64,000 nt of DNA from Phaeobacter inhibens DSM 16374 (lineage in GTDB: Bacteria > Pseudomonadota > Alphaproteobacteria > Rhodobacterales > Rhodobacteraceae), in NCBI RefSeq assembly GCF_000473105.1, contig NZ_KI421498.1, positions 744,001 to 808,000 of the forward strand. Direction: 5' to 3'. Each line of letters starts with the position of its first letter. Positions within the stretch are counted from its first letter, which is position 1. The position numbers and the translations under genes are program-made. The notes under the pieces are model-generated. The model had not been told where the DNA came from, did no database searches, and saw nothing but the letters and a program-made list of their open reading frames with translations. This document shows positions 2,399 through 64,000 of this stretch, one piece after another.

Positions 2399-3208
2399 AT
2401 GGCTGTAGGTATCTTTGATTCCGGCCTTGGCGGGCTGACCGTGCTGAATGCCGTGCAAGAGCGGCTCCCGGATGTGGACTTCCTCTACTACGGAGACAAC
2501 GCGCATGCACCCTATGGTGTACGCGATGCCGAAGATATTTATCAACTGACCAAGGCGGCGGTTGAGGACATGTGGTCCAAGGGCTGCAATCTTGTGGTCC
2601 TGGCCTGCAATACCGCTTCTGCTGCCGCACTGCGCCGCATGCAAGAGGACGGTCTGCCCGAGGGTAAGCGGGTGCTGGGCGTCTTTGTGCCGCTGATTGA
2701 GGCGCTGACCGAACGCCAATGGGGCGACAATTCCCCGCCGCGCGAGGTGGCTGTCAAACATGTGGCCCTGTTCGCGACACCCGCCACGGTGTCCAGCCGG
2801 GCGTTCCAACGCGAACTGGCGTTCCGCGCCATTGGTGTAGACGTCGAGGCGCAGGCCTGTGGGGGTGTTGTGGATGCCATCGAAGACGGGGACATGATCC
2901 TCGCCGAGGCGCTGGTGCGCAGCCATGTGGATGCGTTGAAACGCAAGATGCCGGAGCCGCAGGCCGCGATCCTTGGCTGTACCCATTATCCGCTGATGGA
3001 AGAGATCTTTCAGGCCGCACTGGGCGCTGATGTGCAGGTGTTTAGTCAGGGCAGATTGGTCGCCGATAGTCTGGCCGATTACCTTGAGCGTCACCCGCAG
3101 ATGATGGGGCAGGGGCAGGGTGGGTTCTACACCACCGGCGTACCGGCCCGTGTCAGCGACCGCGCCACGCAGTTCTTGCGACGAGAGATGATCTTTCAGG
3201 CGGCCTGA
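2399..3208 (+). CDS. murI: Glutamate racemase
   Basis: Interconverts L- and D-glutamate in the cytoplasm, supplying D-Glu for peptidoglycan. The 269-residue protein carries the complete family signature. It starts with GIFDSGLGG (Asp7-Ser8), has the first catalytic cysteine in ACNTASA (Cys70) and the second in LGCTHYPL (Cys194, with His196). Length is normal for MurI. It follows the acyltransferase gene by 20 bases with a GAGAGA ribosome-binding sequence. The 131 bases between murI and argC hold a 14-bp perfect palindrome (3227-3240) of unknown meaning. Confidence 0.95.
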
Positions 3209-3339
3209 CCGATATTGGTGCAGCAGCTTCACGCGTGAAGTTTGATCTGCGACAATTCCTCCAGTGCCGTTATCAGCTATTGCTGCCGCGTCCCTGATGC
3301 GGTGTCTCGGTTCTACCCCAGTCACGAAAGAGGTCCCTG

Positions 3340-4368
3340 ATGACCCATAAAGTAGCTATTCTTGGCGCCTCCGGTTACACCGGCGCTGAACTGGTGCGGT
3401 TGATTTCCCAGCACCCCACGATTGAGATCGCGGCACTGTCCGCAGAACGTAAGGCCGGTATGACCATGGCCCAGGTGTTCCCGCACCTGCGCCATCTGGA
3501 GCTGCCGGTGCTGTGCAAGATTGGTGAGATTGATTTCACCGGTATCGACCTGTGTTTCTGTGCCCTGCCGCATAAGACCAGCCAGGAGGTCATCGCGGCG
3601 TTGCCGCAGGATCTGAAGATCGTCGATCTGTCTGCGGACTTCCGGCTGCGTGATCCGGATGAGTATGAAAAATGGTATGGCAACCCACATGCGGCCCTCG
3701 CCCAGCAGAAAGAGGCGGTCTATGGCCTTAGCGAGTTTTACCGCGAGGAAATCAAATCCGCGCGTCTGGTGGCGGGCACTGGCTGCAACGCCGCCACGGG
3801 CCAGTTTGCCCTGCGTCCGCTGATCGCATCCGGGGTGATTGATCTTGATGAGATTATTCTGGATCTTAAATGCGCGGTCTCCGGCGCGGGTCGCAGTCTC
3901 AAGGAAAACCTGCTGCACGCGGAGCTGAGCGAGGGCTATCACGGCTATGCCGTTGGCGGCACCCATCGGCATCTGGGGGAATTCGATCAGGAATTCAGCA
4001 AGATTGCCGGTCGCCCGGTCAAGGTACAGTTTACCCCGCATCTGGTGCCTGCCAATCGCGGGATTCTTGCCACCGTCTATGTGAAAGGCGATGCGCAAAC
4101 GATCCATCAGACCCTTGCGACGGCCTATGCGGATGAGCCGTTCATCGAGCTGCTGCCGTTTGGCGAGGCGCCCTCAACCCGGCATATCCGCGGCTCGAAC
4201 TTCTGCCACATTGGGGTAGCGGCGGACCGGATCGAAGGCCGTACCATCGTCATCGCTGCATTGGATAACCTGACAAAAGGTAGCAGCGGTCAGGCCTTGC
4301 AGAATGCCAACCTGATGTTAGGTGAGGAGGAGACAACCGGGCTGATGATGGCGCCGCTGTTCCCCTAA
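3340..4368 (+). CDS. argC: N-acetyl-gamma-glutamyl-phosphate reductase
   Basis: Third step of arginine synthesis: NADPH-dependent reduction of N-acetylglutamyl phosphate to the semialdehyde. The 342-residue protein has the Rossmann start [13 protein letters not shown] (9-21) and the catalytic cysteine in GTGCNAATG (Cys149). Both match the type 1 (about 340-residue) ArgC family. The ATG at 3340 is preceded by AGAGG at proper distance. ccmE begins 53 bases downstream on the same strand. Confidence 0.96.
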
Positions 4369-4421
4369 CGACCCAAAGGTCTGGCGCAACATGCGCCGGA
4401 CCCACACCTAAAGAGGCCGCG

Positions 4422-4865
4422 ATGAAGTCACTGAAAAAACAGCGCCGCATCCAGATCATCGCACTCACCACTGTGGCATTGGTGGTGGCCACGGCGCTGA
4501 TCGGCTATGCCATGCGGGACGGCATCAATTTCTTCCGCTCGCCCAGCCAGGTGATGGAACAGCCGCCAGAGGCCAGTGAGGTGTTTCGTATCGGCGGTCT
4601 GGTGGAGGAAGGCAGCATCATGCGCGGACAGGGGGAAACCGTCCGCTTTGTTGTGACAGATGGCGGGGCGTCGGTCCCGGTGGCTTACACTGGGGTTCTG
4701 CCCGATCTCTTTTCTGAAAACCAGGGTATGGTCGGGACCGGTCGATACATTAACGGCACCTTTGAAGCCTCTGAAATTCTTGCCAAACATGATGAAACAT
4801 ACATGCCGAAAGAGGTTATGGACGCGCTGAAAGAGCAGGGCGTTTATCAGGAACCCGATACCTAA
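4422..4865 (+). CDS. ccmE: Cytochrome c maturation haem chaperone CcmE
   Basis: CcmE binds haem covalently in the periplasm and hands it from CcmC/D to the CcmF/H ligase. The 147-residue protein has a single N-terminal membrane anchor (about residues 11-30) after a basic start. Its haem-binding motif is LAKHDETYMP, with the covalent ligand His123 and the axial Tyr127. Length and order match the family. ccmA, B, C, D and G are not in the window. ccmF and ccmH lie downstream, but two lysis genes intervene. Confidence 0.95.
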   Translation: MKSLKKQRRIQIIALTTVALVVATALIGYAMRDGINFFRSPSQVMEQPPEASEVFRIGGLVEEGSIMRGQGETVRFVVTDGGASVPVAYTGVLPDLFSENQGMVGTGRYINGTFEASEILAKHDETYMPKEVMDALKEQGVYQEPDT

Positions 4866-49951: not shown

Positions 49952-50402
49952 ATGTGGGGCTGATATATGGCCTCCGTTCTGGCGCGTCCAGAGAAAAAAT
50001 GCGCTGGTTTCAAATTTTTTCGCTCCGGGGAACAGATCATTGCGCCAATGGTCAGAGACCCAAACTTGCCACGATGCCGCCGGGCAATCCTTGATGGTTT
50101 GACACCTTTCGCCGATCAATGCCGGAGTGCGCTGTCAGCCTACTGCCGACGCTGAAACTATGGTAGGCTCATCCCGAGGTGGGTTTGCGTTTGCAGCGCA
50201 TCCGATGTTCGAAGCGGCGGATACCGTGGTCCATCAGCGCACCTCCAATGAAATGACCGGATTGAAAAACCGCGTCTCCCTTTGCTGAATGGCGGCAAAT
50301 TATGCCGTTGCACTGTTGCTGAGGGCCGTTCCTGAGGATGTCGGGTGATCATTATGGCACAGACATAGCATGCCCAGCGGCGCATGCACGAAGGGGGATG
50401 AC
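49952..50402. other. Intergenic region upstream of the HExxH protein gene
   Basis: About 450 bases with no gene that can be supported. A 62-codon plus-strand ORF (49967-50155) has no ribosome-binding site and no recognisable motif. The tRNA-Asn promoter on the minus strand and the promoter of the downstream gene on the plus strand must both lie here. Confidence 0.45.
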
Positions 50403-53400
50403 ATGGCGAAACTGACACATCCTGGCAAATGGCCGCCCACTGATATTGCTGAGGGCACAACACCGCGGGCCTGGTTGCGATATGAACGGCAATATCCGGG
50501 GTCACGCCGCCCGTCGCGCCTGATATCGCATCCGACAGTGCCTTATGTGGCTGCGGCGCGTGTGGGAGGTACGGATGGTGAGATTGATCTGGCGGCGTTG
50601 AGTGCGGCGGCAGAACATTACCTCAAACAGCTGAAGCAGTATGTTAATGCAACGCCGCCGCCGCTGGGAAAGGCTGACCCGATGCTGGATCTGCTGGCCG
50701 ATGTTGCCGCAAGCGGCAGCCTGCTGCATTGGTGTGATATCTGGCCCAAAATTGATGCCGAGCCAAGCCGTCTTGACGGGCAGATCGCCAGTTGGAACAT
50801 GTCGCGCCATCCAAAGAGTGCGATGCCGGGCACCGTCATTCTGGTGGCGACAGAAGGCATTCCTGACCCCATGCATGGATCCTTTCTAATGCGGTTTCCG
50901 TCCGCCGGATTTCGGGTCCCGGTTGAGGTGCGCGCCACCGCTGATGGCTTTGATCTGGTCATCCGTGGCTTGACTGCGGAGTTTCCCGGCGGGTCCCATC
51001 AAGCGCTGTCATCGCTGCTGGCAGGACGCAGCGATGCTGAAAAACGAATGGTGCTGGGCGGATTGTCGCGCAGCCTCTCCGGCGTTCCCTTGGGGTTCCA
51101 GGCCGGTGTTGCACCGGCAACATTGGTTGCATCCTCCGCGACCGATGCGGAGGATGCGCCCGTCGAGGCTGCGGTCTCATCAGACGACGGCAGCAGCGCG
51201 ACATCGCCACCGCCCTCTGATCCGGCGCCTGTCCCACCGACACCGCAAGCCGGTGCGGAGCCTCCGGCCCGATCCTCGGTCTATCGGATGATCACGATGC
51301 TTGAGGATAACATTGCTAAGCAGGCCGGAGTTGTTCCGAAGTCCCTGTTGCTGCAGGATATTCGGTTTTCGGCGGAGCCTGAGAACGTCACCGACGGGGC
51401 CTGGGATATTACCCTGACCCTGCTGGCGCGTGGGCAGGATACGCCGCGGGGCGAACCGGTGAGTTATCGTCTGACAGTTCGGGTGCGTCTGGCGGAGCCA
51501 GGCGCAAATGAGGTTGAGTTGCTCTCGGTCACGCGGGTACCGCTGGTCAGTCACGCGGTGGCCGGAACGGGGATTCCGCTGCCGCCACCGCTGCCTTTTG
51601 TGCGGGTATTTCCGGTGCCGCCGCCCGATTGGCGGGCCCCGTCGGGGAGAGTTCCGCCGCACCCCGCACCACCGCTTGCATGGCGCCGCCCGACGCGGCC
51701 GGACAGGATTTTGGATCTCTTCCGGGAAGACCGGGCGATTCCGCTGGCTCTTGGCATGAAGATGCAGCAACCGGCCTACGAGGTGCGCAACTGCCCGCGG
51801 TTTGTGCCTGGCGACGGGGAGGGCCGTTTCCCCAAAGCCCTGCCGACCACCGGGTTGTCCGATCTGCCGCCGCGCCGCAATGTATCCAGTGCAATCAGCG
51901 CCTATTGGCACAGCAAAACCTTCTTCGACAATATGCGCGGGCTGGGCCTTGCACCGGAGAGTTACATGGCCACGGCGGAGGGGCCGCTGGCGGTGCACTA
52001 TCGGTCGGGCATCGTGCCAGGGCCGGGCCGGGATGGGCGGACTATAAATGCCCAGGTGCGCTATGAGGTGGCACCGGATGCCACCCTTCAGAGCAAACCC
52101 AGCATCGATATGCATCTGGCGCTGGCCAATCTCAACCGTTGGGCGAGGGTGAAGACAGGAACGCCGGACAGTCGATTGGAGCCGTTGGCTATCGCCAGCT
52201 GCGGGCGTTGGATGTTGCATGAATTCGGGCATTACCTTTTGGCGGCCCGGATTGGGCAACTGGAGTTCGACTTTGCCCATAGTGCAGGGGACTCGCTGGC
52301 GGCAGTGTTCTTTGATCCACTGTCCGATCTGTCCAGCCCGACCTATCCCGGCGATCCGAGGATGCGGGGGTGGACGTTTCCCTTTGTCTTTGCGCCGCGG
52401 CGGCACGACCGGACGCCCGCAATGGGCTGGGGCTGGTACGGATTGCTGAACCGCTCGGTGATTGAGGATCCGCCTGATTCCGGCAGCGAGCATAAGGCCT
52501 ATCTGACCGAGCAGATCCTATCGTCCACCTGCTTCCTGCTTTATCGGTCATTGGGCGGCGATACGCTTGCGGGTGCGGAGGCAGACTGGACACAGCGCAC
52601 CCGGGCCTCCGATATGACGCTATATCTGCTGATGCAGGGCATGGCCGGGCTGGCACAATCGCCGTCGCGCGCTGAAATGCTGGAGGTGGGCATGGAAGAG
52701 GCCGGCTGGAGCGCCCCGGCCTCCGTCCCCTTGCCAAGAGGCGGAGCAGACTGGCAGCCCGCCACCTCTCACAAGGCGACGCGATGGGCCTATGAAACCA
52801 TGGGCATGTTCCCTTCAGATCCGAGTGAGATCATCAGCAAAGCGGGGGCGGCTCCGCTCGTTGACATCTACATTCGCGACCGCCGCCCCAATGTCTTCCC
52901 CACCGGGGACGGGCCGGTGGAGGTCGGACCAGGCAGCTATGTGCCCGTCTCGCTTCATTGGGCCGCGGATGCCAATTGGGTAATGCCCGGGTGGTGGCCG
53001 AGCTGTGGCAACCGGGGGTCCGTCGCCGCCACTAGCGCGCGGCTGCGCGCCTGGGCCGGTTGGGTGCTGAGTGACAAACCGCTTGCTCAGATCATGGAAC
53101 GCAGTGTTGTCTGGCACGGGGACCTTGATATCGGGCCGTTTGACATTGCGCCGGGCGGGGCCGACATAGCGCTGGCGCAGGCTGATCAGCAACAGATCAC
53201 GCAACTGACCACAGCAGCACGCAATGCCGCCCCTGCCGGAACCCAGCTGGTGGCCTTTTATGAACTGAGCCAGGTCAACGACCGCGCCAACACCGACCCG
53301 TCAGCCGGGTTCACAGTCATGATCGGGCCGGGGGCGTCACCCCCGACGACGGTTCAGGCGCTTGTTGATCTGGTTGCCGGTGACAATAATCTGGGCCTGC

Positions 53401-53414
53401 ATATGGAAGGTTAA
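50403..53414 (+). CDS. Large HExxH protein, putative zinc metallopeptidase (gluzincin-like)
   Basis: A 1,003-residue protein of unknown function. It has an N-terminal unknown region (1-250), a Ser/Pro/Ala-rich linker (about 255-290), a beta-rich domain, a second Pro/Arg-rich linker (about 395-440) and a C-terminal half with WMLHEFGHYLL. His606, Glu607 and His610 form an HExxH site; Asp630 lies 20 residues after the second His, the place of the third ligand Glu in M4/M36 gluzincins, with His626 an alternative. The preceding AISAYWHSKTFFDNM also recalls such proteases. There is no signal peptide or membrane helix. AAGGGGG supports the ATG. The gene converges on the GLG-repeat gene with an 18-base gap. 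Confidence 0.55.
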   Translation: MAKLTHPGKWPPTDIAEGTTPRAWLRYERQYPGSRRPSRLISHPTVPYVAAARVGGTDGEIDLAALSAAAEHYLKQLKQYVNATPPPLGKADPMLDLLADVAASGSLLHWCDIWPKIDAEPSRLDGQIASWNMSRHPKSAMPGTVILVATEGIPDPMHGSFLMRFPSAGFRVPVEVRATADGFDLVIRGLTAEFPGGSHQALSSLLAGRSDAEKRMVLGGLSRSLSGVPLGFQAGVAPATLVASSATDAEDAPVEAAVSSDDGSSATSPPPSDPAPVPPTPQAGAEPPARSSVYRMITMLEDNIAKQAGVVPKSLLLQDIRFSAEPENVTDGAWDITLTLLARGQDTPRGEPVSYRLTVRVRLAEPGANEVELLSVTRVPLVSHAVAGTGIPLPPPLPFVRVFPVPPPDWRAPSGRVPPHPAPPLAWRRPTRPDRILDLFREDRAIPLALGMKMQQPAYEVRNCPRFVPGDGEGRFPKALPTTGLSDLPPRRNVSSAISAYWHSKTFFDNMRGLGLAPESYMATAEGPLAVHYRSGIVPGPGRDGRTINAQVRYEVAPDATLQSKPSIDMHLALANLNRWARVKTGTPDSRLEPLAIASCGRWMLHEFGHYLLAARIGQLEFDFAHSAGDSLAAVFFDPLSDLSSPTYPGDPRMRGWTFPFVFAPRRHDRTPAMGWGWYGLLNRSVIEDPPDSGSEHKAYLTEQILSSTCFLLYRSLGGDTLAGAEADWTQRTRASDMTLYLLMQGMAGLAQSPSRAEMLEVGMEEAGWSAPASVPLPRGGADWQPATSHKATRWAYETMGMFPSDPSEIISKAGAAPLVDIYIRDRRPNVFPTGDGPVEVGPGSYVPVSLHWAADANWVMPGWWPSCGNRGSVAATSARLRAWAGWVLSDKPLAQIMERSVVWHGDLDIGPFDIAPGGADIALAQADQQQITQLTTAARNAAPAGTQLVAFYELSQVNDRANTDPSAGFTVMIGPGASPPTTVQALVDLVAGDNNLGLHMEG

Positions 53415-53432: not shown

Positions 53433-54878
53433 TCATGTGATATCAGCGGAGACCCAGGGTGTCGGCCATTCGGTCTTCGCCTTCTCCAGAATACGGTGCA
53501 GCGTGGGCACCGCGATATGCGCCCATGGGGTGCCGTCGGCCGCCGGGTTCACAGGGGCACTGTCCATCAGGCAATACCAGATCCCTGCCGCGATATGCCG
53601 TCCTGCGGTCGAGTCGGAGGGGTAGTGAACCCCGATCCGTTCGCGGTTCACCGCAATCCGGTTCGCCATGGTCAGCAAAGGCGAGGCGATCACATCGCTG
53701 CCAAGCAGATCGCTATAAGTTGGCTTGCGCAACAAGGTGCCGGCCGGGATTTGAATATCCGTGCCTGAGCCATCGGACTTATACCCTTTCACCACACCAA
53801 AACGCTGCGCCACACCGGGGATTTCCAACAACAGCAGGGACAGGAAATGTGCGAGAAACGCATGCCCGCTGGGAAAGGCGGGATGGGCTGGTGGACCAAA
53901 GGGCACCGTCAGCCCGGGCCGCAGTATCGACGGGCGCACCCGTTTGAAATAGGCCTTGTAGCTCATATAGGCGACATTACCGACCGCCAGTCCAAGATCA
54001 ATAAGCTTGAGCGTGAAAGGATGGTCAAAGCTGTTGGCCCCCAGAAAATGGATCAGATAGGCCGGCAGGCCATCGGCCTGAATATCGCATTCAACCATAT
54101 ATTGCTGACGATCATCCTCCATATACATCTTGAGCACTTCCAGCTCGGCGACAATGATGTCAAAGGCGGCCTCAGCCGCAGTGCGCGATTGTGCAGCGGT
54201 GCCGGTTCTGACGTATTGCCAAAGCAGATCCTTGTCTTCCAGCCAGCGATTGCCGACATGGGCCGGATGCCAGTTGTTAAACTGTGATGCAAATTCCAGC
54301 GCCGCCATGGTGCCGGGTTCGGATCTGTCTGCGGCCCGCAGCCATTCCCCGAGATTGGGGTCAAACGGCAAGCTCCAAAACCGCAGGGCAGGGTCCCAGT
54401 CTTCGGTCGTCCATTCCAGCGCCACGGGATAAGCGGCAGTGTCTGTCGGCAGCTGATAAGGGCTGATGATCATCGACAGAGGGAACGGGTCACCGCCGTT
54501 GTTGTCTGGGCTGAAGTCCAGCGTCCAGGGCAGCAGCCCCAGCTCCTTGGGTGTCGCGTAGTAGCTGCGCAATGTGCCGATCCCAGCGTCAGCCCCATTG
54601 CCGAGCAGATAGCCGTTGTCCTCAAGCCCGAGGCCCAGCCCTGAGCCGAGCCCCAAACCGTTCCCGAGTCCGAGACCGGATCCTAGTCCAAGACCAAGGC
54701 CGGATCCCAAACCCAGGCCAAGCCCCAGGCCCTGACCCGCGCCCAACCCGTTGCCAAGACCGAGTCCATTGCCCAATCCCAAACCGTTTCCAAGACCCAG
54801 ACCATTGCCGAGGCCCAGCCCCAACCCGAGACCCAGACCGTTCGACGCACCTTGTGAACTGCCATGTTCCGCCATCAT
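53433..54878 (-). CDS. PAP2/vanadium haloperoxidase-fold protein with N-terminal Gly-Leu repeat
   Basis: A 481-residue protein. Residues 14-85 are an almost pure GLG/GNG/GSG repeat. Residues about 230-445 carry all three motifs of the acid phosphatase/vanadium haloperoxidase superfamily: Lys308-x6-Arg315-Pro316 (KAYFKRVRP), PSGHA (His339), and Arg412-x5-His418-x3-Asp422 (NRERIGVHYPSD). All residues that bind vanadate or phosphate are kept. The length of the catalytic part and lack of membrane helices favour a soluble haloperoxidase-like enzyme over a lipid phosphatase. No signal peptide is seen. AGGGGGA precedes the ATG pair. It lies 133 bases downstream of the cyclase gene in the same direction. 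Confidence 0.82.
   Translation of the reverse strand: MMAEHGSSQGASNGLGLGLGLGLGNGLGLGNGLGLGNGLGLGNGLGAGQGLGLGLGLGSGLGLGLGSGLGLGNGLGLGSGLGLGLEDNGYLLGNGADAGIGTLRSYYATPKELGLLPWTLDFSPDNNGGDPFPLSMIISPYQLPTDTAAYPVALEWTTEDWDPALRFWSLPFDPNLGEWLRAADRSEPGTMAALEFASQFNNWHPAHVGNRWLEDKDLLWQYVRTGTAAQSRTAAEAAFDIIVAELEVLKMYMEDDRQQYMVECDIQADGLPAYLIHFLGANSFDHPFTLKLIDLGLAVGNVAYMSYKAYFKRVRPSILRPGLTVPFGPPAHPAFPSGHAFLAHFLSLLLLEIPGVAQRFGVVKGYKSDGSGTDIQIPAGTLLRKPTYSDLLGSDVIASPLLTMANRIAVNRERIGVHYPSDSTAGRHIAAGIWYCLMDSAPVNPAADGTPWAHIAVPTLHRILEKAKTEWPTPWVSADIT
54622..54839 (-). repeat. Gly-Leu-Gly coding repeat (72 residues)
   Basis: About 218 bases of degenerate six-base repeat encoding GLGLGN/GLGLGS units. Synonymous codons vary strongly (all four Gly codons; CTG, CTT, CTC and TTG for Leu), so the protein repeat, not the DNA repeat, appears to be what is conserved. 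Confidence 0.9.
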
Positions 54879-55011: not shown

Positions 55012-56784
55012 CTACTCGGGCAGTCCCGCGCGTATCAAACCGTCGATCAGACGATCCAGGGCCTCCTTTGATTTCAGCGGATACCAGGTCGCAAATTTCG
55101 AGACCGAGAATCCGGGATCGAGAGCGAGTATTTCCTGCGCTACTTTGTGCGCATTTTCAGCCTGACCGCTGAGGGCAAAAGACGCCGCAAGCAACCGCAG
55201 GCTGGCCATGAAACGGGGCTTGTTGCGGCGGGCGTTTTTCAGAAAACGGATCGCCTCCGGCAGGTTGTCATCGACAAATTCAGCGAGGCCGGCAGCGGTC
55301 AGAAAAAAGAAACTCAGAGGATCGTAAGGCGCCAGCCGCCAGACATTGAGAAGCCTGTCGCGGGCCTCTGCACCGTCGCCGAGGTAGGCATATGTCGTCG
55401 CACTCAGCCCCCAGGCCAGCGGCAGGTTCATATTATGCGCCAGCGCATCCTCAAAGAGTTCCAGCGCGTCTTCCGGGCTGTTTTCATGCAGGCTGAGCAC
55501 ATGCGCGCGCACAGACAGCGTCAGCGCGTCATCCGGGTCCAGTTCCACCGCGCGCCGGGAATGGTTGATCATGGTCAATATGTCGTCACGCGGGTTGTGA
55601 GAATGGCCCTCCGCCAAAAAGAAATTCATACACCAGGCGAGATAAGCATGGGCCTGGGGATATTTTGGGTCAAGTGAGACGGCGCGCTTCAACAGGGCAA
55701 TTGCCTCTTCATAGCTGTGGTCGTCCAGCTGATAGAGCCGGGCGAGGGCGCGCAGCACACATTTGTAAGCATCCAGACTGTCAGTGCTGCGGGCGCTGAT
55801 ATGTTCAGCCTCGGTTGACAGCACCTTAGGTTCCAGCATCGCCAGCACACCGGAGGCGATTTCATCCTGAAAGGCAAACAGCTCCTGCAGATCCCCGCGA
55901 TAGGTCTGAGCCCAGATGGCGCGGTTGCGCAGCACATCCATCAACTCAACAAAAATACGCAGCTGATCCCCGTGTCGGTCGACCGAACCAGTCAGCAGAT
56001 AGGAAACCCCGAGGCCGCGACCGATCTCGGCCGGGTTTTCGTTGCTGCCCCGGAATTTAAGTGTCGAGGTGCGCGCCATGACAAACATCGTGCGGCTGCG
56101 GGACACACCTGAGATGATCTCCTCGGTGATGCCGTCGCCGAAATATTGCTCCTCAGCCTGCGCGCCGCGATCCTGAAACGGCAGAACCGCCAGCGTCGGG
56201 CGGTTTTTCCAATCGGCATGGGGGTGCAGGGGAACGGTGTCACCGCTGCCGTCGCAGACCTGATAGACCTGAACCGGGCGATCAATGTTCTTCAGCAGCG
56301 GCGATCCAAGGTCGTGAAACCGCAGCGACAGTTTTCCGCGAACGATATCGCGGACCATCTTGGTGACCACCACGGTGCCGGGATCGGCCAGTTGATGAAT
56401 GCGTGAGGCGATGACAACGCCATCAGATTGCACAGTGCCCTGATCATCGATCACGTCGTCAATATTGACGCCAATGCGGATCTTCATCGGGTTGGCATCG
56501 TCATTCTGCTGGCCCAGCCGGTCCTGAACCGCCATGGCCCATTGCACCGCATCTGTGGCGCTGGAGAATTCCACCAGCAGCGCATCTCCGGCATCGGACC
56601 GCCGCACGCCGTCGTAACGCTTCAACTCATCCAGCAGCACTGTATCGCGCAGGTGACACCAACGGCGCACCGTATCCGTTGTGCTGATTTCGATATGCCG
56701 CGTGTAATCGGCCACGTCAGCAAAGGCAAACGCCGTGAGCCGCGTAGAGATCTTGGGTAGGATTGTCGAGATGGGCCCCTGCAT
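55012..56784 (-). CDS. Class III nucleotide cyclase domain/TolB-like/TPR protein
   Basis: A 590-residue cytoplasmic protein in three parts. Residues 15-180 form a class III adenylate/guanylate cyclase homology domain with metal aspartate candidates Asp23 (FADVADYTR) and Asp67 (SDAGDALLVEF). Residues about 195-320 form a TolB/FlgO-like domain (PTLAVLPFQD, FGDGITEEII). Residues about 340-580 are TPR-like helices (AVSLDPKYPQAHAYLAW, AVELDPDDALTLSVRAH). Such proteins are common in rhizobia and roseobacters; activity is often unproven. No transmembrane helix is present. It lies upstream of the GLG-repeat gene in the same direction and could share a transcript with it. Confidence 0.83.
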   Translation of the reverse strand: MQGPISTILPKISTRLTAFAFADVADYTRHIEISTTDTVRRWCHLRDTVLLDELKRYDGVRRSDAGDALLVEFSSATDAVQWAMAVQDRLGQQNDDANPMKIRIGVNIDDVIDDQGTVQSDGVVIASRIHQLADPGTVVVTKMVRDIVRGKLSLRFHDLGSPLLKNIDRPVQVYQVCDGSGDTVPLHPHADWKNRPTLAVLPFQDRGAQAEEQYFGDGITEEIISGVSRSRTMFVMARTSTLKFRGSNENPAEIGRGLGVSYLLTGSVDRHGDQLRIFVELMDVLRNRAIWAQTYRGDLQELFAFQDEIASGVLAMLEPKVLSTEAEHISARSTDSLDAYKCVLRALARLYQLDDHSYEEAIALLKRAVSLDPKYPQAHAYLAWCMNFFLAEGHSHNPRDDILTMINHSRRAVELDPDDALTLSVRAHVLSLHENSPEDALELFEDALAHNMNLPLAWGLSATTYAYLGDGAEARDRLLNVWRLAPYDPLSFFFLTAAGLAEFVDDNLPEAIRFLKNARRNKPRFMASLRLLAASFALSGQAENAHKVAQEILALDPGFSVSKFATWYPLKSKEALDRLIDGLIRAGLPE

Positions 56785-56906: not shown

Positions 56907-57395
56907 TCAGCTTTTGGAGCTCTCAACCTCCGGGTAGACTGCAGTCTTTTTCACGACGCCGTAGACAAAGCTGGTGTCGATGGAACTGATACCGCCAATG
57001 GGATGCAGACGCGCGCGCACGAAGCGTTCGTAATCCTCCAAATCCGCCACCACCACGCGCAGCAGGTAGTCGGCCAGGCCGGTCATCACAAAACAATCCA
57101 GCACCTCCGGTGTGTCGCGGATCTGGCGTTCGAAATTGGCCACCACGCTTTCCGTGTGGTTCTCAAGGCTGACCCGGACAAAGACCGTGACCGGCAGCCC
57201 GTAGACCTTGGCATCGACATCGATACTGTAGCCCTGAATGACATTGGTGTTTTCCAGAATACGCAATCTGCGCAGGCAGGGTGAGGGCGAGAGATTGACC
57301 TCAGCCGCGAGGTCGAGATTCGTCATCCGCCCATTGCGCTGCAGCGCCCGGATTATTCGGCGATCGGTGGCATCCAGTTTGGCTATCTCTGGCAT
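56907..57395 (-). CDS. mdeR: Lrp/AsnC family regulator of methionine catabolism (MdeR-like)
   Basis: A 162-residue regulator with an N-terminal helix-turn-helix (DRRIIRALQRNGRMTNLDLA, then LSPSPCLRRLRIL) and a C-terminal RAM ligand-binding domain (VTGLADYLLRVVV-like TGLADYLLRVVVADLEDYE). It diverges from the methionine gamma-lyase gene with a 94-base intergenic region containing a TTAG-CAA-CTAA inverted repeat. In Pseudomonas putida the same arrangement (mdeR-mdeA-mdeB) is activated by MdeR in response to methionine. Equivalence is inferred from order and family. Confidence 0.87.
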   Translation of the reverse strand: MPEIAKLDATDRRIIRALQRNGRMTNLDLAAEVNLSPSPCLRRLRILENTNVIQGYSIDVDAKVYGLPVTVFVRVSLENHTESVVANFERQIRDTPEVLDCFVMTGLADYLLRVVVADLEDYERFVRARLHPIGGISSIDTSFVYGVVKKTAVYPEVESSKS

Positions 57396-57427
57396 AATAT
57401 GCCAATCCTTTTCCAGTTTGAGGGTAA

Positions 57428-57440
57428 ATTAGCAACTAAT
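57428..57440. promoter_or_regulatory. Candidate Lrp-type operator between mdeR and mdeA
   Basis: The perfect 5-bp inverted repeat attagcaactaat lies 32 bases before the mdeR start and 49 before the mdeA start. It is AT-flanked, as expected for an Lrp/AsnC binding site serving both divergent promoters. Confidence 0.5.
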
Positions 57441-57489
57441 CACCCGCGTGGCCATCCTAAGATGCTGGAAACACAATAGGGTGATTTCC

Positions 57490-58695
57490 ATGACAAAAAC
57501 CGGCTCCAGCTTCTCCACACGCGCAATCCACCATGGCTATGACACGCAGTCGCAGCAGGGATCGCTGAACCCGCCGCTCTATCTGACGTCGACGTTCACC
57601 TTCGATTCCGCCGAGGCCGGTGGCGAGATGTTCACGGGTGAGCGCGAGGGGCATTTCTACAGCCGGATCTCCAACCCGACGCTGGACCATCTGGAGCAGC
57701 GCATTGCCAATCTGGAAGGGGGCGAAGCAGGGCTCGCCACGGCGTCCGGCATGGGTGCGATCACTTCGACGCTGTGGTCGTTCCTTGCGGCGGGTGACGA
57801 GATCATCCTCGACAAGACACTCTATGGCTGCACCTTCTCCTTCATGACCCATGGTCTGCCGCGTTTTGGTGTGAAGGTGCGCCTGGTGGATATGACAGAT
57901 CCGACCAATCTGGCAGAGGCGATCAGCCCCAAGACCAAGCTGGTCTATTTCGAGACGCCGGCGAATCCCAATAATCGCTTGATCGACATTGCTGCGATTT
58001 CCGAGATTGCGCACAAAGCCGGTGCCAAAGTGGTGGTCGACAACACCTTTGCCACGCCGGTCCTCACGCGACCGATCGAACTGGGCGCAGATATCGTGGT
58101 GCATTCGGCAACCAAATTCATCAGTGGTCATGGCGATGTCATCGCGGGGCTGGTGGTGGGCTCCAAGGAGGATATCACCCAGATCCGTCTGGTGGGGCTG
58201 AAGGATATGACTGGTGCGGTCATGTCACCCTTCAGCGCAATGCTACTGATGCGCGGCCTGAAGACGCTGGAACTGCGCATGGAGCGCCATTGCAAATCCG
58301 CACTGAAAGTCGCTGAGGCACTGCAAGCGCATCCTGCGGTGGAGCGGGTCTATTATCCAGGCCTTGATGATTTTGCCCAGAGAGATCTGGCCGGGCGGCA
58401 GATGTCGGGCTTTGGTGGCATGATCCCGTTTGAAGTGGTCGGCGGCAAGGCAGGCGGTATCGCCATGATGAACCGGCTTGAGATGATCCAGCGCGCGGTC
58501 TCGCTAGGTGATGCGGAGACCCTGATCCAACACCCGGCCAGCATGACCCATTCGACCTACACCCCTGAGGAACGCGCCGAACATGGCATCGCTGAGGGTC
58601 TGGTGCGGATGTCGGTAGGGCTTGAAGGTGTCGACGATATCATCGACGATCTGATGCAGGCGCTGTCCTCGCATAACGCCTACGCCGCTGCCTGA
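57490..58695 (+). CDS. mdeA: Methionine gamma-lyase
   Basis: Splits methionine into methanethiol, 2-oxobutyrate and ammonia. The 401-residue PLP enzyme has ATASGMGAITSTLWSF and the active-site cysteine region LYGCTFSFMTHG (Cys114, equivalent to Cys116 of P. putida MGL), which separates it from cystathionine lyases. The Schiff-base lysine is Lys209 in HSATKFISGHGD. The start at 57490 is favoured by family length; an in-frame ATG 14 codons earlier lacks support. The MdeB gene follows, and the Lrp regulator is divergent. Methanethiol release is of ecological interest in marine roseobacters. Confidence 0.92.
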   Translation: MTKTGSSFSTRAIHHGYDTQSQQGSLNPPLYLTSTFTFDSAEAGGEMFTGEREGHFYSRISNPTLDHLEQRIANLEGGEAGLATASGMGAITSTLWSFLAAGDEIILDKTLYGCTFSFMTHGLPRFGVKVRLVDMTDPTNLAEAISPKTKLVYFETPANPNNRLIDIAAISEIAHKAGAKVVVDNTFATPVLTRPIELGADIVVHSATKFISGHGDVIAGLVVGSKEDITQIRLVGLKDMTGAVMSPFSAMLLMRGLKTLELRMERHCKSALKVAEALQAHPAVERVYYPGLDDFAQRDLAGRQMSGFGGMIPFEVVGGKAGGIAMMNRLEMIQRAVSLGDAETLIQHPASMTHSTYTPEERAEHGIAEGLVRMSVGLEGVDDIIDDLMQALSSHNAYAAA

Positions 58696-61327: not shown

Positions 61328-64000
61328 TCAGCTGTCAGTCTCCTGCGCCTCGCGGAAGATCCCGACCAGTCGCGTCACATCACCATTGTCGTCGCGAATA
61401 GCCATCCCCTGGCTCTCCACCTGGATCTCGACGCCATCGGGACGGATCAAACGTTTGATGAAGGAAAAACCGTTACCCGTTTCAATGGCCTCGGAGACGA
61501 TGCGCTGCACATCCTCACGGTCATCGGGGTGGAAGAAGGCAATCGCGCTGTCGATTTCCGGATCATAATCCTCGGGTTTTACGCCATGGATCTCATAGAC
61601 TTTGGGCGACCAATAGGGGGTCTGGCCATCCGCATCGATGGACCAGAAACCGATCCCGACCATGTCCTGAACCAATTCGGCCTGCATCAGCAACTCTTCG
61701 GCCCGTTCGCGTGCCTCCACGGTTTCTGTCACATCGGTGCCAATGGTGAAAACAGTCGGTTCCTCGGTGATGTGATGCGGGAACCGGTGGCGGTCCATGC
61801 TGATCCAGCGGTCGCCCTCACCACCGGGCAAGCTCACCTGCAGCAGTTCATTGTCAAACCCGTCCTTGCTGTCGAGCACCTTTGCATCTTCCCGGAGCGT
61901 CTGCTCATCAGCGCCGGCGTCCGATGCGAGTGCAAAGAGATTCTTTGACAGCGCCTTGTCCCGGCTCAGCCCAAGGAGTTCCGCATAGGCCGAACTGATC
62001 CGCAGGACCTCACCGCTGCGGGTTCGATTGAGCAGCAGCAGATTGGAGTTGTCGAGGATCATCTCCATCTCATGGGCCATGCCGGGGAATTCCGACACCA
62101 CCATGGTCACGCCGAGGATCTGCCCATTGACATCAAAGTAGGGCGAGCAGGTCAGCCGGATGCGGGTGCCCTTGGAGGTGAATTCCTCGGTCACGGTCTG
62201 GCCAAGGCGCAGCGCCTCGCTGCAGATCGGTGCCAGGATCGGAAAACCTTCCGGCAGGGCACATTGGCTGATGTGCGGGCTGGAGATGGGGCGGCGGATA
62301 TTGAACATCCGGGTTGCCGCCAGAGTTGCCTGAGTGATCTGCAAAGCGCTGTCGGCCACAACAATCGCCAGCGGCGTGCTTTCGAGAACGGAGATCAGCT
62401 CGCCGGTACGACCACTCAGCTCGGACGCGGTGACCTGCAGTTCCTCGTTGACGGTAATCAGCTCTTCGTTGGTGGATTGCAGTTCCTCGTTTGAGGTCTC
62501 CAGCTCCTCATTGGTGGCTTGAAGTTCCTCATTGGTGGATTGCAGCTCCTCATTGAGCGACTGCAGTTCCTCGTTCGAGGTCTCCAGCTCTTCAATTGTC
62601 TGCTGCAGAGCTTCGCGGGTTGTCGCGACCTCATTCTCAAGATTGCGGATCCGTTCAAAGGTGGCGTCACCTTCCTCACCAACAATCGGTGTCTCACTCA
62701 TCCGGGAGCGGTCAACCGTGACCGGCGTGAAGACCACAAGCGCCGCGCGTTCGCTGATGTCCTTGGCGATAATCGGGTAGACGTCGAGGCGGATCTCCTC
62801 GTCGTCATTCTCTGCCAGAAGATGGCGCACGCCGCCCTTGTGAGCGCCGTTTTTCAGCGCGATGGTGATCAGGCTGCGCGCCTCTTCACGCAGGGGGCTG
62901 CGCAGCAGATCAAGATGCATCCGCAACGAACTGGTCTCATTGACTTCGATAAACTGACTCACCGAGCCATAGACCCGCGCGATGGAGAAATCCTCGGTGA
63001 CCAGAAGCGAGTTTTTGCCCAGGGACTGTGCCAATGCCTCAAACAGCTGACGGTCGGTGGAGGGCCCCGGCTGTGCAGGCGGTTTGATGGTTGGCCGCTG
63101 CGCCATCATCGGCACCGATGGCATATTATAGGGCTGCTGGGCCTGATGGGCGCGCAGAGATCGCTTACGATAGACATGCGATGCAGAGCGGTCCTGGACG
63201 AACAGTTCATCAGATCCGGCGACGCTCTCGGCGGTGCCGAGGAACAGCAGCCCATGCGGTGACATCGCATAGTGGAACCGCGACATGACTTTCTGCTGCA
63301 GCGGGTTGCCGAAATAAATCAGTAGGTTGCGGCAGCAGATCAGATCTACCTTCTGAAACGGCGGATCCTGGCAGACGTTGTGGTCGGAGAACAGAACCGC
63401 ATTGCGCAGGTTGTCGACCACCCGGACGCCATCGGTCTGGCGGATCAGGTATTTATCCGCAAGTTCAGAGGGGATATCGTTCAGCGCCGCAAGGCTGTAG
63501 ACCCCTTTACGCGCCGTTTTCAACGCATCCTTATCGATATCGGTCGCGAAAATCTGCACCCGTGATTTGAGCTGATTGGTCGGGTTGCCGAGCGCCTCAG
63601 AGACCACCATGGCGATTGAGTAGGCCTCTTCGCCGGTGGCGCAGCCAGCCACCCAGATTCGCAGCGGGCCGGGACCGCGCTCCTTGATCAGTTGGGGCAG
63701 CAGCGCTTTCAACAACTCGAATTCTTCGCGGTCGCGGAAAAACCGCGTGACCGAAATCAGCAAGTCCTTGAACAAGGCATCAACAGCATGAGGGTTGTTG
63801 CGGCAGAACTGGGTGTATTCCTCCTGGGTTTCGATCCCAAGGGCAATCATGCGCCGCTCGATCCGGCGGCTGATGGTTGTCTGTTTGTAGTCGCGGAAAT
63901 CCACGCGGGTGCGCGCCAGAAGAATTTGTAGCAGATCCGACACCGGCGAGTCCCGCAGGCTGTTCTCATGCCGGAAGGAGGTGAAATCACGCGGGGAAGA
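61328..64000 (-). CDS. CheB/CheR-type methyltransferase with coiled coil and PAS domains (cut by window edge)
   Basis: The frame is open to the right edge, so the N-terminus is missing; at least 890 residues are present. In order: a CheR methyltransferase domain (YKQTTISRRIERRM, then WVAGCATGEEAYSIAMV for S-adenosylmethionine, CRNLLIYF), a linker, and a heptad coiled coil of NEELQ-type repeats. At least two or three PAS regions follow, the last with YWSPKVYEIHG and a typical PAC end (LIRPDGVEIQVESQG). This matches the CheB-CheR-PAS fusion family, in which a CheB methylesterase domain comes first; that part would lie outside the window. No kinase domain follows. The GTG at 63943 is internal, not a start. 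Confidence 0.88.
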   Translation of the reverse strand, partial: SSPRDFTSFRHENSLRDSPVSDLLQILLARTRVDFRDYKQTTISRRIERRMIALGIETQEEYTQFCRNNPHAVDALFKDLLISVTRFFRDREEFELLKALLPQLIKERGPGPLRIWVAGCATGEEAYSIAMVVSEALGNPTNQLKSRVQIFATDIDKDALKTARKGVYSLAALNDIPSELADKYLIRQTDGVRVVDNLRNAVLFSDHNVCQDPPFQKVDLICCRNLLIYFGNPLQQKVMSRFHYAMSPHGLLFLGTAESVAGSDELFVQDRSASHVYRKRSLRAHQAQQPYNMPSVPMMAQRPTIKPPAQPGPSTDRQLFEALAQSLGKNSLLVTEDFSIARVYGSVSQFIEVNETSSLRMHLDLLRSPLREEARSLITIALKNGAHKGGVRHLLAENDDEEIRLDVYPIIAKDISERAALVVFTPVTVDRSRMSETPIVGEEGDATFERIRNLENEVATTREALQQTIEELETSNEELQSLNEELQSTNEELQATNEELETSNEELQSTNEELITVNEELQVTASELSGRTGELISVLESTPLAIVVADSALQITQATLAATRMFNIRRPISSPHISQCALPEGFPILAPICSEALRLGQTVTEEFTSKGTRIRLTCSPYFDVNGQILGVTMVVSEFPGMAHEMEMILDNSNLLLLNRTRSGEVLRISSAYAELLGLSRDKALSKNLFALASDAGADEQTLREDAKVLDSKDGFDNELLQVSLPGGEGDRWISMDRHRFPHHITEEPTVFTIGTDVTETVEARERAEELLMQAELVQDMVGIGFWSIDADGQTPYWSPKVYEIHGVKPEDYDPEIDSAIAFFHPDDREDVQRIVSEAIETGNGFSFIKRLIRPDGVEIQVESQGMAIRDDNGDVTRLVGIFREAQETDS
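62432..62600 (-). repeat. 21-base coding repeats of the coiled coil
   Basis: About eight near-copies of a 21-base unit encoding seven residues (variants of TNEELQS/SNEELQS) make a continuous heptad coiled coil between the CheR and PAS parts. This is usual in CheB/CheR-PAS fusions, and copy number may vary between strains. Confidence 0.85.

Follow-up and report, generated by a model that had tools for sequence, protein, structure and literature searches.

Tandem repeats of diverse but mostly exact units on PAP2-superfamily enzymes of a three-gene module found mainly in Alphaproteobacteria

Introduction

An enzyme encoded in the window, i.e., the whole stretch of 64,000 nucleotides from Phaeobacter inhibens DSM 16374 analysed here, carries close to its N-terminus a run of 72 residues in which every second residue is glycine, and this raises the question of what such a repeat could do on an enzyme. 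A first-pass annotation had read the protein as an enzyme of the vanadium haloperoxidase fold with a Gly-Leu repeat that might self-assemble, bind membranes or anchor the enzyme. Relatives and neighbours of the gene are described here, and the real finding is one that this annotation did not contain, namely the three-gene module to which the enzyme belongs and the free choice of the repeated unit.

Results

The window enzyme and its active site

The open reading frame starts with ATG and lies where it had been annotated (Table 1). The repeat at residues 14-85 was confirmed as well, with glycine in 36 of 36 alternate positions and the X positions filled by Leu (26), Asn (5), Ser (3), Ala (1) and Gln (1). 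By eye, the N-terminus (MMAEHGSSQGASNGLG) is without a signal peptide, and no hydrophobic leader was seen ahead of the repeat on the same inspection. The AlphaFold model of the enzyme, computed from a two-row alignment, has a mean pLDDT of 30.4.

Judged by its Pfam score and its active-site residues, the window enzyme belongs to the PAP2 superfamily: PF01569 (PAP2) matches residues 296-438 with 32 bits against a cut-off of 27.2 (NCBIfam gave no match at E 0.1), and the six residues K308, R315, H339, R412, H418 and D422, already listed by the first-pass annotation, are all present and kept in 68 of 68 aligned rows, a set including the repeat-less relatives L156 and L157 and excluding L100 and L113. 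The same K-R, S-x-H and R-H-D set is found in class A non-specific acid phosphatases and vanadium bromoperoxidases (PDB 7f17, PhoN 2akc, 1qi9). The name “vanadium haloperoxidase” holds as a superfamily-level statement only; our profiles score acid phosphatases above vanadium bromoperoxidases (profile A2, from 27 repeat-bearing module enzymes: 3.3e-18 vs. 5.3e-12; profile A1: 4.7e-7 vs. 0.0018); by profile, the closest solved relatives are acid phosphatases. Class A acid phosphatases are exported via an N-terminal signal peptide, which by eye the window enzyme does not have. Likewise by eye, 14 repeat-less bacterial PAP2 relatives mostly start with a hydrophobic, signal-peptide-like segment, whereas the module enzymes lack such a leader and bear the repeat.

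Table 1. Features of the module in the window (positions counted from the first letter of the window)
Feature	Position	Strand	Basis
PAP2-superfamily enzyme with N-terminal tandem repeat, 481 aa	53433..54878	-	ORF, Pfam PAP2, orthologs
Tandem repeat (Gly-X)36, residues 14-85, unit GLGLGN/S	54624..54839	-	Sequence and six genus members
Active-site motif 1, K308 to R315	53934..53957	-	K, R in 68/68 rows
Active-site motif 2, S337-G338-H339	53862..53870	-	H 68/68, S 65/68, G 48/68
Active-site motif 3, R412 to D422 with H418	53613..53645	-	R, H, D in 68/68
Upstream regulator, 590 aa: cyclase-homology (weak, E 0.005), TolB_N-like (weak, E 0.002), TPR	55012..56784	-	Pfam
Convergent partner, 1014 aa, protease slot, putative zincin-type metallopeptidase	50370..53414	+	HExxH motif and slot
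HEFGH-x15-H motif of the partner	52218..52280	+	Homolog alignment

Close relatives and selection on the repeat

A close ortholog was found in six of the seven genomes of the genus (own genome counted), while the seventh, G006, gave a weak match only; the gene matched there is a distant PAP2 member that carries a GGL repeat of its own. Across the six genus members the glycine register is unbroken (225 of 225 alternate positions), and the relatives have not all lost or frameshifted the repeat. Strong matches (E < 1e-90) occur in at least 6 of 394 family genomes, own genome counted, and the four orthologs from outside the genus carry GMGMGN (L009), GLGLG (L010) or GQGQ (L011, L012). Matches through the Gly-Leu repeat alone were excluded (L018, L019, L023, L029); one of them, L018:1555-2607 in G009, is a long open frame of RL/GL dipeptides and by eye no PAP2 gene itself.

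Between genus members, the window array is under purifying selection. For the three pairs of equal repeat length, pN/pS of the repeat (72 codons) was 0.000/0.293 (window-L004), 0.014/0.304 (window-L003) and 0.014/0.378 (L003-L004), and that of the core (150 codons) was 0.010/0.329, 0.019/0.365 and 0.006/0.161, respectively; constraint on the repeat is thus similar to that on the catalytic part. Codon inspection agreed with the earlier remark that the repeat codons are diverse, and the view that selection acts on the protein was borne out by the low pN between genus members and by a codon order less repetitive than random (see below).

A three-gene module

A TPR regulator, the PAP2-superfamily enzyme and a protease-slot gene form a module common to 67 loci (64 in Alphaproteobacteria), located on chromosomes and plasmids, with neighbours found by profiles built for each of them. 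The count leaves out the decayed locus L100 and a second L113 fragment, and the repeat-less relatives L156 and L157 stand outside the 67 and were kept in the tree. An N-terminal tandem repeat is present on every one of the 67 module enzymes counted, and on 67 of 68 if the decayed L100 is added, which rules out a one-off Gly-Leu insertion.

In 66 of 67 loci the enzyme has a regulator homolog within 6 kb, adjoining it on the enzyme's strand in 57 and divergently in 8; at L154 it is found about 1.9 kb off on the enzyme's other side, and L055 lies at a contig edge. The regulator N-termini, where identified, are cyclase-like, BTAD/SARP or winged-helix (winged-helix or BTAD e.g., in L051, L053 and L102). 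A protease-slot gene is likewise present within 6 kb in 66 of 67 loci, with none for L067. According to Pfam for representatives, S8 annotations in nine plasmid records and profiles for the rest, these genes encode subtilases (45), papain-like proteins (8), A4 proteins (5) or the HExxH protein of the window type (8). Among the subtilases, 37 are of one type and 8 of the other, 7 of these 8 lying 1.7 to 2.1 kb off, past the regulator; of six papain-like proteins scanned, one scored above the Pfam cut-off, two just below it and three had no match.

The protease-slot gene of the window, which may actually begin at the ATG at 50403, belongs to the HExxH class. Its residues H617, E618, H621 and H637, the last a further possible ligand, are invariant in 6 of 6 homologs, and all 8 loci of the window clade have a homolog next to the enzyme. 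Neither Pfam nor NCBIfam gave a family match, the PDB gave none below E 1.4, and the AlphaFold model from a two-row alignment reached a pLDDT of 29.1; as no family matches, the putative metallopeptidase assignment follows from motif and slot. Its identity as a mod_HExxH hydroxylase was ruled out (hhalign probability 0.5 percent).

A repeat of the enzyme type was found in none of 142 regulator, protease-slot and heme-peroxidase neighbours, which rules out a repeat shared with a neighbour protein; set against 67 of 67 module enzymes and combined with the purifying selection, this makes the repeat more than chance. PADLOC models matched none of eight module proteins, ruling out a known anti-phage defence system. 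Among the matches listed in a search of the open-access literature (titles and abstract starts, with subscription papers mostly outside it), no description of the module was found, and it is widespread and apparently undescribed. We consider the facts on the module, the repeat and its selection practically certain.

Several further genes were noted nearby. In the window, an Lrp-like regulator is divergent from a Met/Cys gamma-lyase-like PLP enzyme at 56907-58695 (names by eye), a pair also found near the module in L002, L037 and L038. On the module contig of G006, past the subtilase, L036:2-1393 and 2792-4423 encode a caspase-like protein, part of which by eye resembles a peptidoglycan-binding domain and which has a partial homolog in L122, and an unknown protein. 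A heme peroxidase family gene lies beside some modules (L106:6910-8625 in Palleronia, annotated; L059:6563-8482, a homolog; partial in L062, weak in L144 and L149), and L103:6908-9450 on a Rhizobium ruizarguesonis plasmid carries an aKG-HExxH-type peptide beta-hydroxylase and a ThiF-family adenylyltransferase straight after the module. The window also holds a 21/42-bp tandem repeat at 62436-62594, whose minus strand reads as a coiled-coil heptad-like run (ELETSNEELQSLNEELQSTNEEL) within a long ORF, an ordinary repeat of the signalling-helix type.

Distribution

Every distant relative of the enzyme that was followed carries an N-terminal tandem repeat, in various wordings (NAV, NFS, GGLN, DAR, NGGI, NGGL, NGGM, SNA, HGGT, HSGS, HGAT, DAL, TSN, AGN, TGN and DGM, and a short EGGG in L067). 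Profile A2 was used on overlapping samples of class and phylum genomes and matched at least 13 of 385 class genomes at 3e-34 or better and at least 22 of 398 phylum genomes at 1e-31 or better, both counts being lower bounds, as part of the first-look candidates were scored. A plasmid search with the window protein as query found nothing; queries with other members did match, in 106 to 109 records, and the 15 records examined carry modules in Phaeobacter, Rhizobium, Paracoccus, Roseibium, Microvirga, Terrarubrum, Palleronia, Pontibrevibacter and Aliiroseovarius and also in the betaproteobacterium Caballeronia. Two decayed modules were seen on plasmids: L113:4087-5242 (Parasedimentitalea), with the enzyme split over frames and the repeat still there, and L100:4773-5845 (Bosea), with the enzyme broken over two frames and no regulator or repeat seen.

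A second module, whose units are NSF and whose protease is by profile a subtilase, lies on a different contig of the window's own genome. All seven genomes with two modules (G000, G005, G244, G774, G299, G490 and G255) have different units in the two, which says little, as same-unit pairs are rare anyway.

Free wording and exact copies

The units range from GLGLGN, GMGMGN and GQ to NAV, DAR, NFS, NGGM, HGGT, TGN, GGF, NSF, NKNK and AGR. The 67 arrays have 46 rotation-distinct longest perfect units, or 44 with the Gly-X clade reduced to GL, GM and GQ, and periods of 3 (42 arrays), 4 (11), 2 (7), 6 (4), 8 (2) and 5 (1); Cys, Pro and Tyr occur in none of them. The polar or charged units NKNK, NRNR, DAR, AGR and QTQ sit on homologous enzymes in the very place of the window's Gly-Leu repeat, so membrane binding as a general rule is unsupported and a membrane anchor as the general role is ruled out. 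Furthermore, a hydropathy scan of stop-to-stop frames found strongly hydrophobic segments in just 2 of 72 enzymes, 2 of 71 regulators, 1 of 48 subtilases and 1 of 8 HExxH proteins.

Within an array the copies are mostly exact in protein. For 57 of 67 arrays the best-scoring stretch repeats perfectly, and 7 of the 10 imperfect ones belong to the window's own Gly-X clade, in which Gly is fixed and X varies. At the DNA level, no two units are identical in 22 of 67 arrays and at least three quarters are distinct in 45. Adjacent units share identical codons at 461 of 1386 positions, against a simulated mean of 546.5 (sd 14.2; 0 of 2000 simulations as low) when the same codons are dealt in random order; synonymous codons are thus less repetitive than random order, ruling out an artefact of DNA slippage. 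Slippage or duplication does create arrays, since two of the 67 (L032, L067) have units identical in DNA throughout.

At least about 44 units face five protease-slot classes over the same loci. On a quick maximum-likelihood tree, in which 23 of 65 inner branches are open, the minimum number of changes was 48 (unit), 7 (period) and 4 (protease class); the unit is a string and the protease a class, so that these changes are not like for like, and the unit and protease counts lie near their floor (states less one) and say little beyond the number of states. One clade has GGF, GSF and NSF arrays, as if a single residue had been swapped in all copies, and the array of L104 is part NAH and part TAQ, as if caught mid-replacement. 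Arrays therefore seem to originate when a new unit expands, with the protein sequence being kept from then on.

TPR similarity is raised between modules with the same unit (38 of 2016 pairs; residual 0.037 vs. -0.001, with 4 of 2000 permutations as high). The matched mean percentiles of same-unit modules, from which kinship was not removed, were 0.78 for the TPR domain, 0.66 for TolB_N and 0.60 for the protease (0.5 expected; n = 13, pairs not independent). This co-variation is suggestive of a TPR partner of the repeat and is confounded by kinship.

Repeat and regulator go together

As control, 47 loci from two profile searches (class and phylum) were compared, 33 of them repeat-bearing and 14 not; the former comprise nine profile members, one close ortholog and 23 new loci, and the latter are other superfamily members. 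Of the 33 repeat-bearing loci, 32 have the regulator within 1.5 kb, the exception being L136 (the same gene as L154); none of the 14 repeat-less ones does. Eight of eight viral loci have neither repeat nor regulator and one query of phage records returned a single weak record; on these grounds a phage origin was rejected.

Discussion

The repeat of the window thus turns out to be one wording among many on enzymes that share a regulator and a protease-slot gene. Tentatively, and with somewhat less than even confidence, we read it as a homotypic assembly or recognition tag on a regulated cytoplasmic enzyme; of the roles named by the first-pass annotation, self-assembly is the one we favour. An enzyme that lacks an export signal and is encoded with a TPR regulator and a protease-slot gene would carry its N-terminal repeat as a functional tag for which repetition matters and wording is free. 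Identical units on several enzyme chains could align with one another, the alternating Gly-Leu of the window doing so as a silk-like strand pattern; the paired tags would gather the enzyme into a multimer or condensate, and regulator and protease could switch this assembly on or off. The cytoplasmic location, the pairing, the assembly and this division of labour among the three proteins are what we infer from the genes and their arrangement.

Exactness with free wording is what self-pairing predicts: copies must match, and nothing else changes with the unit. With such self-pairing, exactness of the repeat would be enough, whatever its wording, and the unit would be replaceable without change in a partner; exactness could likewise come from a binding partner or from a cleavage product, but this would require a partner that keeps pace with about 44 units. 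In line with self-pairing, none of the 142 neighbours has a matching repeat, and the proteases of same-unit modules exceed matched others in similarity by little. Some observations speak against homotypic pairing. The charged units NKNK, NRNR, AGR and DAR would repel each other in in-register stacks, the Gly-X clade of the window, with 7 of the 10 imperfect arrays, shows the lowest exactness, and modules with the same unit have TPR domains of higher similarity than expected.

Known repeats and tags offer partial parallels. Silk fibroin is built of GAGAGS repeats, and the window repeat shares both its strict Gly alternation and its hexapeptide rhythm (GLGLGN/S); however, only the window clade alternates Gly-X, and most other module enzymes use unrelated tri- or tetrapeptides in this place. 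Bacterial amyloid signalling motifs (BASS) likewise are short sequence tags, here on an enzyme, with possible homotypic assembly, but the module has exact tandem repeats and a matching motif in 0 of 142 neighbours.

A further step, possible but in our view doubtful, is that the repeats serve as a private address code, an exact and freely re-invented barcode that recognises only itself, so that several modules in one cell would assemble separately, as e.g., the GLGLGN and NSF modules of the genome studied here. An array would arise through slippage of a new unit in the DNA; its codons would then drift or be selected apart, blocking further slippage, while the peptide stays fixed.

Alternatively, the repeat could be a multivalent ligand of the regulator's TPR domain, tethering enzyme and regulator when bound, with protease cleavage or the release of unit peptides as the signal; this is the main competing reading, although we regard it as unlikely. 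The constant company of regulator homolog and protease-slot gene (66 of 67 loci each) and the raised TPR identity of same-unit pairs (4 of 2000 permutations as high) are consistent with it, but the TolB_N and protease percentiles are slightly raised too, as kinship would do. The period partly tracks the protease class, with Gly-X (2 or a multiple) in 8 of 8 HExxH, period 4 in 8 of 8 papain and period 3 in 5 of 5 A4 loci; this match is confounded by phylogeny, however, subtilase periods are loose (37-type: 3 in 29, 2 in 5, 4 in 2 and 6 in 1; 8-type: 3 in 7 and 5 in 1), and one protease type stands beside many units. The reading also recalls RRNPP systems, in which peptide-sensing regulators combine HTH and TPR domains and respond to a secreted propeptide. 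The modules share with them the TPR domain, in some cases with a DNA-binding domain, next to a protease gene and a gene that encodes a short peptide in repeated form, but here the peptide is fused to an enzyme with no export signal seen, and the regulator of the window, like others, has a cyclase-like instead of an HTH or other DNA-binding N-terminus.

That the repeat is a multi-copy peptide substrate in the manner of RiPPs, its units being modified and perhaps excised by the protease, strikes us as improbable. If every unit has to yield one and the same product, exact copies would follow, and the modules bear some resemblance to aKG-HExxH peptide-modification/RiPP clusters (TIGR04267, TIGR04510): the cyclase-TPR regulator of the window weakly matches TIGR04510, “putative peptide modification system cyclase,” at 40.5 bits against a cut-off of 400 (not its best match), the Rhizobium module L103 is followed by the peptide beta-hydroxylase (73.5 bits, cut-off 40) and the ThiF-family gene, and L151 has homologs of both. 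Yet such homologs were found in just these two of 67 contexts, the window and all other modules giving none; the two are sister loci whose enzymes are 91% identical, and the window thus lacks the adjacent maturase of a RiPP cluster, as far as homologs of the L103 family, the one sought, are concerned. No cleavage motif common to the units is apparent, and Gly-Leu units offer little to modify.

The reading as a passive linker, solubility tail or by-product of DNA slippage, which the low-complexity composition rich in small residues and the two arrays identical in DNA would suit, is disfavoured and seems to us very improbable, as a passive linker need not be exact whereas the units are exact in protein in 57 of 67 arrays, synonymous codons are less repetitive than random order, pN is 0.000 to 0.014 in genus pairs, and the repeat is absent from 14 of 14 relatives without the regulator nearby.

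If the homotypic tag holds true, the module enzymes would be a natural case in which selection demands an exact tandem repeat and barely minds which peptide is repeated, and their approximately 44 evolved repeat tags would form a library for self-recognition by simple sequences. Moreover, they would offer a clean test of how repeats arise and then freeze at the protein level. For marine and soil bacteria, this would add a new regulated enzyme-protease module.
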